Below the pieces are notes generated by a model. It made no database searches, had not been told where the DNA came from, and was given only the letters and a program-made list of their open reading frames with translations. Shown here piece after piece: positions 22,179-26,043 of a stretch of 37,869 bases of DNA. Position numbers and translations under genes: made by a program. The first letter of the stretch is position 1. Every line of letters starts with the position of its first letter. This DNA is from Lysobacteraceae bacterium (GTDB taxonomy: Bacteria; Pseudomonadota; Gammaproteobacteria; Xanthomonadales; Ahniellaceae), in assembly GCA_021299185.1 (NCBI GenBank), contig JAJTHZ010000083.1, positions 1 to 37,869 on the forward strand. The letters are read 5' to 3'.

Positions 22179-23090
22179 TCAGGGGCGCGCGAACACGGTG
22201 CGGTCGCGGCCGCCGCGCTTGGCCTCGTACAGCGCCTGGTCGGCGCGCTGCAGCAGGCCGAGCCGGTCGTCGCGCGCGGCGTCGAACGCGGCGAGCCCGA
22301 TGCTCACCGTCACCGCCTCGTCGCTGTGCGGCGCGGCGCGCATCAGGTCGCGCACCGCGACGCGCAGCGCCTCGCAGCGCGCGTGCGCGGTGTCGGGATC
22401 GGTCTCGGGCAGCAGCCAGGCGAACTCCTCGCCGCCGAGGCGCGCCGCGACCGAGGTGTCACCGGCGGCGGCCTTGAGCAGCACCGCGAAGTGGCGCAGC
22501 ACGTCGTCGCCGCGCGCGTGCCCGTGGCGGTCGTTGATCGCCTTGAAGCGGTCGAGGTCGAGGATCGCCACCGCCAGCGGACGACCGGCCTGGCGCGCGC
22601 GCGCCGGTTCGGCGTCGGTGCGCTCGAGGAAGTGGCGGCGGTTCGGCAGGCCGGTCAGCGGGTCGTGGGTGGCGAGTTCGTACAGCGCGTCCTGGAAGCG
22701 CGCCTCGACCGAGGCGCGGCTGATGAACTTGAGCATGCTCTTGCCGACCACGATCAGGTCGCCGTCGGTCAGGCGCATCTCCTCGATCGGCCGCTCGTTG
22801 ACCAGGGTGCGGTTGGTCGACCCGAGGTCGCGGATGCGGTAGACGTCGCCGTCGCGCCACAACTCGCAGTGGCGGCGCGAGACGCTGCCGTGGTCGATCC
22901 GCAGGTGCGCCTCCGGCCCGCGCCCGACCACCATCGGCCGCGCCTCGATCGGGGCCCGCGTGCCGAGCCCCTCGCCGTGCACCACCACCACGTAGGCCGC
23001 GCGCAGTTCACCGTCACCGGCGCGCGTGAGCGAGGTCGGCTGGGTGGTGGACGCGGTGTCGTCGGGTCCTGGGGGATCGCCTGCGGCCAT
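22179..23090 (-). CDS. FHA domain diguanylate cyclase (GGDEF)
   Basis: 303 residues, soluble. An FHA domain (about 32-122) has the phosphothreonine-reading residues: VVGRGPEAHLRI, SVSRRHCEL and DLGSTNRTLVNE. A GGDEF domain follows (about 135-300) with DPLTGLPNRR, DLDRFKAINDRHGH and GGEEF at 219-223, so it should make c-di-GMP from two GTP. The allosteric RxxD inhibitory site normally nine residues before the motif is absent (GDTS there), so product inhibition is probably missing. The gene is divergent from a Ser/Thr kinase gene 196 bp away, a natural source of the phosphothreonine ligand. There is no membrane segment. Confidence 0.93.
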   Translation of the reverse strand: MAAGDPPGPDDTASTTQPTSLTRAGDGELRAAYVVVVHGEGLGTRAPIEARPMVVGRGPEAHLRIDHGSVSRRHCELWRDGDVYRIRDLGSTNRTLVNERPIEEMRLTDGDLIVVGKSMLKFISRASVEARFQDALYELATHDPLTGLPNRRHFLERTDAEPARARQAGRPLAVAILDLDRFKAINDRHGHARGDDVLRHFAVLLKAAAGDTSVAARLGGEEFAWLLPETDPDTAHARCEALRVAVRDLMRAAPHSDEAVTVSIGLAAFDAARDDRLGLLQRADQALYEAKRGGRDRTVFARP

Positions 23091-23286
23091 GCGTGGAGTC
23101 TAGTGGGGTGTTCCTTGAGTACGCATGCCTTGCGCGCCCCACGGCGCGACCGGAACAGGGCGCGCCAGGGAAGGCGTAGCTGGGCTGCGTCGAAGGGGCG
23201 CGACGCAGGGCCGGGCACGGTGCCCCCGGCCGCTGTTCCCCGCCGGCCGCGCACGCCCCACACTATGCCGACCACCGGACCGTGCC

Positions 23287-26043
23287 ATGGCCCAAGACGA
23301 CACCCGCCCCGCGCTCCCGCCCGCGACCACGCCGCTGACCGGCACCCCGGCCCCGGCCGGTGACGGCCTGCCGCGCGGCACCCGGATCGGCCCGTTCGTG
23401 GTCGAGGACCTGCTCGGCCGCGGCGGCATGGGCGAGGTCTACCGTGCGACACAGCTCGAGCCGTTCGTGCGCACGGTGGCGCTGAAGCTGATCCGCGACC
23501 GCGTGCTCGGCAGCCGCCAGGCCGCGCTGTTCGAGGTCGAGCGGCAGGTGCTGGCGCAGATGAGCCACCCGGCGATCGCCCACGTCTACGACGCCGGCGC
23601 CACCGCCGACGGCCAGCCCTGGTTCGCGATGGAATACGTCGAGGGCCTGCCGCTGACCCAGTGGTGCGACCGCCGCCAACTGGGCCTGCGCGAGCGCCTG
23701 GCGCTGTTCGCGCGGGTGTGCCGCGGCGTCCAGCACGCGCACCAGAAAGGCGTCATCCACCGCGACCTCAAGCCCGGCAACATCCTGGTCACCGAGGTCG
23801 ACGGCACACCGCAGCCGAAGATCATCGACTTCGGGATCGCCGCCGCGGCCGTGCGCTGCCTCGACGGCGACGAGGGCGAGCGGATGGGCACGCCGGACTA
23901 CATGAGCCCCGAGCAGGCCGGCGAGGTGGCGCTGGACGTCGACACGCGCAGCGACGTCTATGCGCTGGGCATCGTGCTGCACGAACTGCTGGTCGGGCGC
24001 CGCCCGGGCGGCGGCACCGGGTCGGACGCGCGCACGCGCGAGGCGACGCTCGGCGTGCCCTCGGCGGCACTCGCGCGCACGGAGCCCGCCGAGCGCGAGC
24101 GGCTCGCCGCGCTGCGGCGCGAGCCCGCCTCGCGCCTGCTGGTCGCCCTGCGCACCGAGCTCGACTGGGTGGTCGCCAAGGCCACGCGCCGCGATCGCAA
24201 CGAGCGCTACGACACCGCCGCACTGCTGGCCGACGACATCGAACGCTACCTGGGGCGGCGGCCGGTCGAGGCCGTGCCCTACACGCGGCGCTACGCGGTC
24301 GGCCGTTTCGTGCGCCGCCACCGGCTGGGGATCGCGGCGGCGGCCGGCGTCGCCACCGCGGTCGTGGCCGGGCTCGCCGCCTCGCTGTACGGGTTCTGGC
24401 AGGCCGACCACCAGCGGCGGCTCGCCGAGCAGCGCAGCGCGGAACTGGCGCGCATGTCCGCGTTCCAGCAGTCGATGCTCAAGGACGTCGACCTCGCGGC
24501 GATGGGCGCGCGGCTCGCCGAATCGCTGCGCGCGCAGCACGCGCGCGCGCTCGAGCGCAGCGAGCCGGACGCCGGTCGGCGCGCCGCCACGGTCGCCGGC
24601 TTCGATGCCGCGCTGGCGGCCACCAGCCCCACCGAGGCGGCGCGACGACTGCTCGGCGAGGACGTGCTGGCGCGCGCGCGCGCCGCCATCGCGCGCGACT
24701 TCGCCGACCAGCCGCTGCTGGCCGGCGACCTGGAACAGACGGTCGGCGAGCTGTACGAGGCGCTCGGCCTGCACGAGGACGCGCGCGCGGTGTTCGAGCC
24801 GCTCGCCGCGGCGCGCGAGGCCGCGCTCGGCGCCGGCGATCCGCGCACGCTCAAGGCACTCCAGGGCCTCGGTTTCGCCCTCAACCGGCTCGGCCGCACG
24901 CAGGAGGCCGAGGCCCTGCTGCGCACGGCGCTGGACGGGGCCCGTGCGGCCGGCACCGGCGGGTCGGCCGCGGCGGCCGGCATCACCAACGTGCTGGCGC
25001 TCAACCTGAGCGACCAGGGTCGCCCGGCCGAGGCGGTGCCGCTGCTGACGCAGGCGCTGGCCGAGGCCCAGCGGCAGCACGCCGCCGATTCCGACCCGGT
25101 GCTCACGCTGCGCACCACGCTCGGCATCGCGCGGATCCGGCTCGGCGAGCGCGAGGCCGCGCTCACCGAATTCTCGACGGTGGCGTCGGCGCGGCGCGCG
25201 CGGCAGGGACCCGGTCACCCGGACACCATGGCGGCGCTCGGCAACCAGGCCAGCGCCCTCGGCATGGTCGGGCGCTACGACGAGGCCCTGGTCCTGCAGC
25301 GCGAGGTGTGGGACACCAACCGCCGGATCCGCGGCGCCGAGCATCCCGGCACGCTGGGCGACGGCAGCAACCTCGGTAGCACGCTGATGCAACTCGGCCG
25401 GCTGGACGAGGCCGCCGCCATCCTGCGCGAGGTGCTGGAGGCGCGCCGGCGCGTGCCCGGCGAGGACCATCCGCAGACCCTGCGCACGGGGCTCAACCTG
25501 GCGGCCACCCTGGTGCGGATGGATGCCGTCGACGAGGCGATCGCACTGCAGCGCGACGTGTTCGCGCGGCGGGCCCGCACGCTGGGCGACGACCATCCCG
25601 ACACCCTGGCCGCGCGCATCGCGCTGGCCGCGATGTGGAAGCAGAAGGGCGACCTCGCGCAAGCCGAGGCCGAGATCCGCGTGGTGCGCGAACGACGCGC
25701 GCGGCTGCTGCCCGAACGCCACCCCGATCGCTTCGAGCCCGACCACATGCTGGCCGACCTGCTGCACGAACAGGGCCGAAGCCGCGAGGCGGCACCGGTG
25801 GCACGCGCCGCCCTGGACGGCTTCGACGCCGCGGTCGGCGCCGAACATCCCTCGACCCTGGTGGCCGCGACCACCGCGTGGGAGGTGTTGCGCGCGACTG
25901 GTGACGCCGCTGGCGCCGACGCGGTGCGCGCGCGCTGGCTGGACCCGGTGCTGGCGCGCGACCCGGAGACCCTGAGCGGCACCCTGCGCCTGCAGCGGAC
26001 GCGCATCGACAAGGTGCTGCGCGAGACGACGGCCGCGCGCTGA
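23287..26043 (+). CDS. Membrane Ser/Thr protein kinase with C-terminal TPR sensor domain
   Basis: 918 residues. The Hanks-type kinase domain (about 36-330) is complete: GRGGMGEVY glycine loop, catalytic Lys67 in VALK, HRDLKPGN (158-165), DFG (181-183) and GTPDYMSPEQ. One transmembrane helix (about 345-370, GIAAAAGVATAVVAGLAASLYGFW) separates it from an extracytoplasmic part rich in tetratricopeptide-like repeats (about 480-880, with recurring HPDTLAAR/HPQTLRTGLNLA motifs as in NphP/kinesin light-chain-type TPRs). This architecture is common in Xanthomonadales and Planctomycetes. The ATG at 23287 has no strong ribosome binding site. Confidence 0.94.
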   Translation: MAQDDTRPALPPATTPLTGTPAPAGDGLPRGTRIGPFVVEDLLGRGGMGEVYRATQLEPFVRTVALKLIRDRVLGSRQAALFEVERQVLAQMSHPAIAHVYDAGATADGQPWFAMEYVEGLPLTQWCDRRQLGLRERLALFARVCRGVQHAHQKGVIHRDLKPGNILVTEVDGTPQPKIIDFGIAAAAVRCLDGDEGERMGTPDYMSPEQAGEVALDVDTRSDVYALGIVLHELLVGRRPGGGTGSDARTREATLGVPSAALARTEPAERERLAALRREPASRLLVALRTELDWVVAKATRRDRNERYDTAALLADDIERYLGRRPVEAVPYTRRYAVGRFVRRHRLGIAAAAGVATAVVAGLAASLYGFWQADHQRRLAEQRSAELARMSAFQQSMLKDVDLAAMGARLAESLRAQHARALERSEPDAGRRAATVAGFDAALAATSPTEAARRLLGEDVLARARAAIARDFADQPLLAGDLEQTVGELYEALGLHEDARAVFEPLAAAREAALGAGDPRTLKALQGLGFALNRLGRTQEAEALLRTALDGARAAGTGGSAAAAGITNVLALNLSDQGRPAEAVPLLTQALAEAQRQHAADSDPVLTLRTTLGIARIRLGEREAALTEFSTVASARRARQGPGHPDTMAALGNQASALGMVGRYDEALVLQREVWDTNRRIRGAEHPGTLGDGSNLGSTLMQLGRLDEAAAILREVLEARRRVPGEDHPQTLRTGLNLAATLVRMDAVDEAIALQRDVFARRARTLGDDHPDTLAARIALAAMWKQKGDLAQAEAEIRVVRERRARLLPERHPDRFEPDHMLADLLHEQGRSREAAPVARAALDGFDAAVGAEHPSTLVAATTAWEVLRATGDAAGADAVRARWLDPVLARDPETLSGTLRLQRTRIDKVLRETTAAR

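Follow-up and report, generated by a model that had tools for sequence, protein, structure and literature searches.

A divergent Hanks-type kinase and FHA-GGDEF cyclase gene pair of the Xanthomonadales: a candidate phosphothreonine input into cyclic di-GMP

Background

Can a Hanks-type serine/threonine kinase act directly on the synthesis of cyclic di-GMP (c-di-GMP)? The question is raised by a 37,869-bp stretch of DNA from a Lysobacteraceae bacterium (contig JAJTHZ010000083.1, referred to as a whole as the window), in which a gene encoding an apparent diguanylate cyclase with an FHA and a GGDEF domain lies divergently beside a gene encoding a membrane Hanks-type kinase with tetratricopeptide (TPR) repeats. 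With moderate confidence, and from sequence comparisons, we favour the view that the two are a cognate pair that turns an envelope signal into c-di-GMP through threonine phosphorylation, the N-terminal tail of the cyclase being phosphorylated and read by the FHA domain. That kinase and cyclase form a functional pair is well supported. The pair is apparently undescribed, no description of it having been found in the literature searched, whose coverage is incomplete, and it offers FHA-GGDEF cyclases a candidate kinase.

Retention of the gene pair in the Xanthomonadales

Relatives of both proteins were sought in a sample of 200 genomes of the order Xanthomonadales (Lysobacterales in NCBI taxonomy), with thresholds of E <= 1e-45 for the cyclase and E <= 1e-120 for the kinase. 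The FHA-GGDEF protein has a relative in 58 of these genomes and the kinase in 37, of which 36 also carry the cyclase (Fisher test, 2.8e-23, uncorrected for phylogeny). Within the family that includes Pseudoxanthomonas (f2, 297 genomes), 63 genomes have the cyclase, 49 have an orthologue of the kinase and 47 have both (Fisher test, 2.8e-38, likewise uncorrected for phylogeny). The genes are directly divergent in 44 of these 47 genomes, with 88-274 bp separating the matches; in the other three, the cyclase gene is at a contig end (G399), the genes are 18 kb apart (G275), or they are on different contigs (G273). A partner kinase that falls below the search threshold adjoins the cyclase in G333 and G377. 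Pairs are spread over about a dozen genera of f2; family f3 (L150, L153, L154) and the family of the window (f1) have them too. A preliminary description of the locus had proposed joint action of kinase and FHA-cyclase, had suggested looking for the pair in other Xanthomonadales and had counted missing co-occurrence in relatives towards a refutation; the conserved adjacency and the co-occurrence both bear the proposal out.

Five other genes of the window were compared (encoding Hsp20, a tricorn-like protease, GH97, HAD and GloB), and none of them has a counterpart close to a pair elsewhere, so the surroundings change while the pair is retained. Among 369 sampled genomes of the class (E <= 1e-50), the cyclase was found only in its own genome and in one other genome of the order. 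The window's own genome (G000) yields 35 GGDEF hits and 38 kinases, and only one such pair is less than 4 kb apart.

A single clade (support 0.999) unites the partner kinases of f1, f2, f3 and one genome of f12 in a tree of kinase domains whose background kinases come from two genomes. The kinases of f9 are the sister of this clade, so that E <= 1e-120 is not a clean line of orthology outside the partner clade, and nearly all of the genomes that carry these f9 kinases have the cyclase. A kinase of another subfamily (G210, L319, approximately 4300-5740), with TxxL at its N-terminus (QTVVL), lies divergently beside the cyclase gene, an arrangement that looks like a replacement of the partner, and in G060 and G061 a kinase gene on the same strand adjoins the cyclase.

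Duplicated members of the pair were also observed. Two FHA-GGDEF copies flank the partner kinase in G433 (L338); the two FHA-GGDEF copies situated 18 kb from the kinase in G275 (L336) are in tandem, the first having an in-frame stop in its aligned part; and in G169 (L144, 7191-12492) tandem partner-type kinases lie beside one FHA-GGDEF gene, the inner kinase being without the acidic TxxL tail described below.

Conserved threonines and the phosphothreonine pocket

Column conservation in the cyclase was assessed among 50 dereplicated homologues (<75% identity). The predicted phosphothreonine pocket of the FHA domain consists of G56, R57, S71, R72, H74, S91, T92 and N93; G56, R57, S71, R72, T92 and N93 are invariant among the homologues and H74 is retained in 47, in agreement with the preliminary description, which had credited the domain with a complete set of phosphothreonine-reading residues. 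The strongest conserved feature of the cyclase outside its domains is T16, found in 48 homologues, the next-best columns of the tail being conserved in 42 and 33. The tails ahead of the FHA domain are otherwise variable in length and sequence except for a single motif, mostly TTQxT and elsewhere TDxxT. All four threonine codons occur at T16, in proportions resembling those of other threonine residues, and this free variation of synonymous codons indicates that the constraint acts on the protein.

A threonine in such a tail has a precedent in DgcB of Bdellovibrio bacteriovorus (Bd0742; PDB 6HBZ, 6HC0, 6HC1), in which phosphorylated Thr14 of the tail binds the enzyme's own FHA pocket and disulphide locking of the tail in the pocket activates the enzyme; the kinase that phosphorylates DgcB was not identified by the authors (PMC6733907). 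Since the most conserved feature of the cyclase outside its domains is its own tail threonine, as in DgcB, the kinase probably has the cyclase itself among its substrates. The preliminary description had the signal pass through autophosphorylation of the kinase, which survives here as one of two routes, the tail threonine suggesting that the cyclase is phosphorylated as well.

The GGDEF domain retains its active motif as GGEEF (22422-22436). The preliminary description was right that the inhibitory site is missing from the window copy, which has GDTS in place of the RxxD of the I-site. RxxD is present in 32 of the 50 homologues, however, so lack of the I-site does not characterise the family; its absence is real in this copy, yet lies outside the conserved system.

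The description of the neighbouring gene as a divergent Hanks kinase with TPR repeats proved accurate. The kinase motifs are intact (GxGGMG, VALK, HRDLKPxN with HRD at 158, DFG at 181, and GTPxYMSPE), and a single hydrophobic stretch is preceded by a basic patch, RRYAVGRFVRRHR. The C-terminal TPR half is probably a periplasmic sensor, to judge from the predicted topology. Assignment to the PASTA kinases (PknB/Stk1) is not supported, the score being 204.6 bits against an NCBIfam cut-off of 450, with TPRs in place of PASTA. Although its reading frame extends back to 23125, the kinase probably starts at the ATG at 23287, because orthologues begin roughly 5-15 residues ahead of the same threonine motif.

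That motif is acidic and stands directly ahead of the kinase domain of the partner kinases (for example DPERTELLATR, DLAPTEGLPTR and DDATRPIDT). Of 53 partner kinases, 52 have it in the form [DE]..TxxL/I/V, versus 4 of 43 paralogues from the window's genome and G090, most of which have a different, helical-looking segment at this position. Docking of the FHA domain on the kinase's own phosphothreonine tail is plausible. Within some genomes the tails of kinase and cyclase resemble each other (ATRPI and ATQPM in G008, PTQR and TTQR in G090, ATRR and TTRR in f3), a likeness that is suggestive and for which shared ancestry could also account.

Proposed mechanism and alternative explanations

In the mechanism that we favour, the TPR repeats of the kinase, on the periplasmic side, would sense something in the envelope, and the cytoplasmic kinase domain would phosphorylate T16 of the cyclase tail, or its neighbours T15 or T19. 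By homology with DgcB, the phosphorylated tail would be bound by the FHA domain in cis and would shift the GGDEF dimer to an active arrangement. In most orthologues, the [DE]..TxxL tail of the autophosphorylated kinase may first dock the FHA domain of the cyclase, in the manner of PknB, which docks GarA ahead of modifying it. These steps could be joined in a phospho-handover, which we put forward tentatively, as a possibility rather than a probability: the FHA domain docks on the autophosphorylated TxxL tail of the kinase until the phosphorylated TTQxT tail of the cyclase displaces it, freeing active cyclase. If the handover is true, the partner would be the first identified kinase for a DgcB-type cyclase and would provide a direct serine/threonine kinase input into c-di-GMP.

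Several observations weigh against this mechanism. The position three residues after T16 is threonine in 25 of the 48 homologues that have T16, including the window cyclase (T19), and is rarely hydrophobic, whereas in DgcB it is the hydrophobic V17; FHA domains are, however, reported to bind pTxxT (PMC4037201). The DgcB residues V174 and L175, at the contact between its FHA and GGDEF domains, and D56, at the contact between FHA domains, are not conserved (Q167, A168 and P52 in the window cyclase), so the activating geometry may differ from that of DgcB. The kinase tail motif is weak in the window itself, where QDDTRPAL has leucine at +4 and TTPL comes further on. Both genes are present in G008, G009 and G037 but on different contigs or far apart. 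Finally, at least ten cyclases of f2 have no adjoining kinase (G159, G216 and G250 among them) and most of these retain TTQ; therefore, either they rely on a different kinase or the tail does something else. The idea that loss of the kinase tracks loss of the tail threonine was considered on account of G159, which has TAQ and no kinase, and found no support, because most other unlinked cyclases retain TTQ.

The tail motif of the partner kinases, in which leucine mostly occupies +3, is a more usual FHA ligand than that of the cyclase, and nearly all paralogues lack it. It could indicate that the FHA domain acts purely in trans, binding the autophosphorylated tail or activation loop of the kinase so that the cyclase is recruited or activated there, while the cyclase's own tail is not the activating ligand. 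A parallel exists in PknB, which reportedly recruits GarA through its activation loop (attributed to Villarino 2005). Such an account would leave the conserved T16 unexplained, and the kinase of the window has neither a clean TxxL nor any serine or threonine ahead of GTPDYMSPE in its activation loop. This trans model, which is that of the preliminary description, may describe the opening steps of a cycle that ends with binding in cis; as the whole explanation we think it unlikely.

Kinases are numerous in these genomes (38 in that of the window), and the tail is retained in many cyclases that have no kinase linked to them, as would be expected if the FHA domain served to bring the cyclase to phosphothreonine sites made by the partner and by other kinases, producing c-di-GMP locally or modulating the kinase with no change in catalysis. 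The outcome of tail phosphorylation in GarA and OdhI, moreover, is a blocked FHA domain and not an activated enzyme (PMC2784874). Localisation of this kind predicts no tie to any one kinase clade, yet the two genes are divergent neighbours in 44 of 47 genomes, and we consider it distinctly improbable. Least probable of all is that a shared regulatory region alone explains the adjacency with no phospho-signalling between the proteins: a short divergent intergenic region is present in all 44 f2 pairs, but this leaves unaccounted for the intact FHA pocket, the threonine motifs of both tails and the co-occurring unlinked copies in G008, G009 and G037, and the free synonymous codon use at T16 points to constraint at the protein level. 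No sigma-70 consensus was found in the intergenic region between kinase and cyclase.

What gives the pair its interest is that DgcB's structure shows how an FHA-GGDEF cyclase could be activated by phosphorylation of its tail (PMC6733907), and that such cyclases in many Xanthomonadales are genetically linked to kinases of one clade, both proteins having candidate phosphosites. Hanks kinase input into c-di-GMP can thereby be tested directly, for instance in Pseudoxanthomonas.

Organization of the locus and genomic background

The features of the locus are listed in Table 1. An Hsp20-type small heat shock gene lies just past the cyclase (21666-22094) and is not found beside other pairs. The genome of 4.84 Mb from which the window comes is very rich in both Hanks kinases (38) and GGDEF-domain hits (about 35), and contains two more FHA matches within approximately 2 kb of a Hanks kinase (G000:C33:5866-8543 and G000:C211:784-2453; L362, L363).

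Table 1. Positions in the window of the kinase and cyclase genes and of their predicted parts
Feature	Position	Strand	Basis or remark
FHA-GGDEF diguanylate cyclase gene (P0001, 303 aa)	22179-23090	-	Open reading frame; Pfam FHA and GGDEF
GGDEF domain, residues 140-297	22200-22673	-	Pfam, 1.2e-41; alignment
FHA domain, residues 54-116	22743-22931	-	Pfam, 3.9e-19
Cyclase N-terminal tail, residues 1-32, motif S-T15-T16-Q-P-T19	22995-23090	-	T16 codon at 23043-23045
Divergent intergenic region common to both genes, 196 bp	23091-23286		Presumed promoter region
Membrane Hanks-type Ser/Thr kinase gene with TPR repeats (P0002, 918 aa)	23287-26043	+	Translation, Pfam, orthologue comparison
Thr-rich N-terminal tail of the kinase (residues 1-37; QDDT6RPAL, T14TPL), where orthologues have D..T[EQR]xL	23287-23397	+	
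Protein kinase domain, residues 38-253	23398-24045	+	Pfam Pkinase, 1.1e-37
Predicted transmembrane segment, residues ~347-365	24325-24381	+	Hydropathy maximum downstream of basic patch
C-terminal TPR repeats, residues ~514-899	24826-25983	+	Pfam TPR_12 and TPR_10, several stretches

Comparison with known systems

The closest solved structure to the cyclase is that of DgcB (6HBZ), with which it is colinear over residues 33-300 (phmmer, E 2.5e-39). Both have a tail of about 30 residues with a conserved threonine, an FHA domain with a matching pocket and a GGEEF domain, the pocket residues of the window cyclase and DgcB corresponding as R57/R61, S71/S75, R72/R76, H74/H78, S91/S95, T92/T96 and N93/N97. 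The tail motif is TTQxT in the one and KTSIV in the other, the window cyclase is without the RxxD I-site of DgcB, and, unlike DgcB, it has a linked kinase gene beside it. The window cyclase thus appears to resemble DgcB in outline and is not called its orthologue, because several features of DgcB that were looked for are absent from it.

An FHA protein with an N-terminal threonine tail is also the target of Hanks kinases in the mycobacterial GarA/PknB and corynebacterial OdhI/PknG,PknB systems, where a tail phosphorylated by the kinases at a Thr-Thr site is then bound by the protein's own FHA domain (PMC2784874). The FHA part of the cyclase matches the OdhI model at 8.5e-18, which is below the cut-off. 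The output of GarA and OdhI is inhibition of metabolic enzymes rather than c-di-GMP, docking is on the activation loop of PknB, and the kinases have other sensor domains. A further comparison is with BE21_29150 of Sorangium cellulosum, a fusion of kinase, tail, FHA and GGDEF (974 aa) whose kinase is closest to Bd3148 (PMC6733907); judged from its description, it joins in one chain the parts that are split here over two divergent genes.

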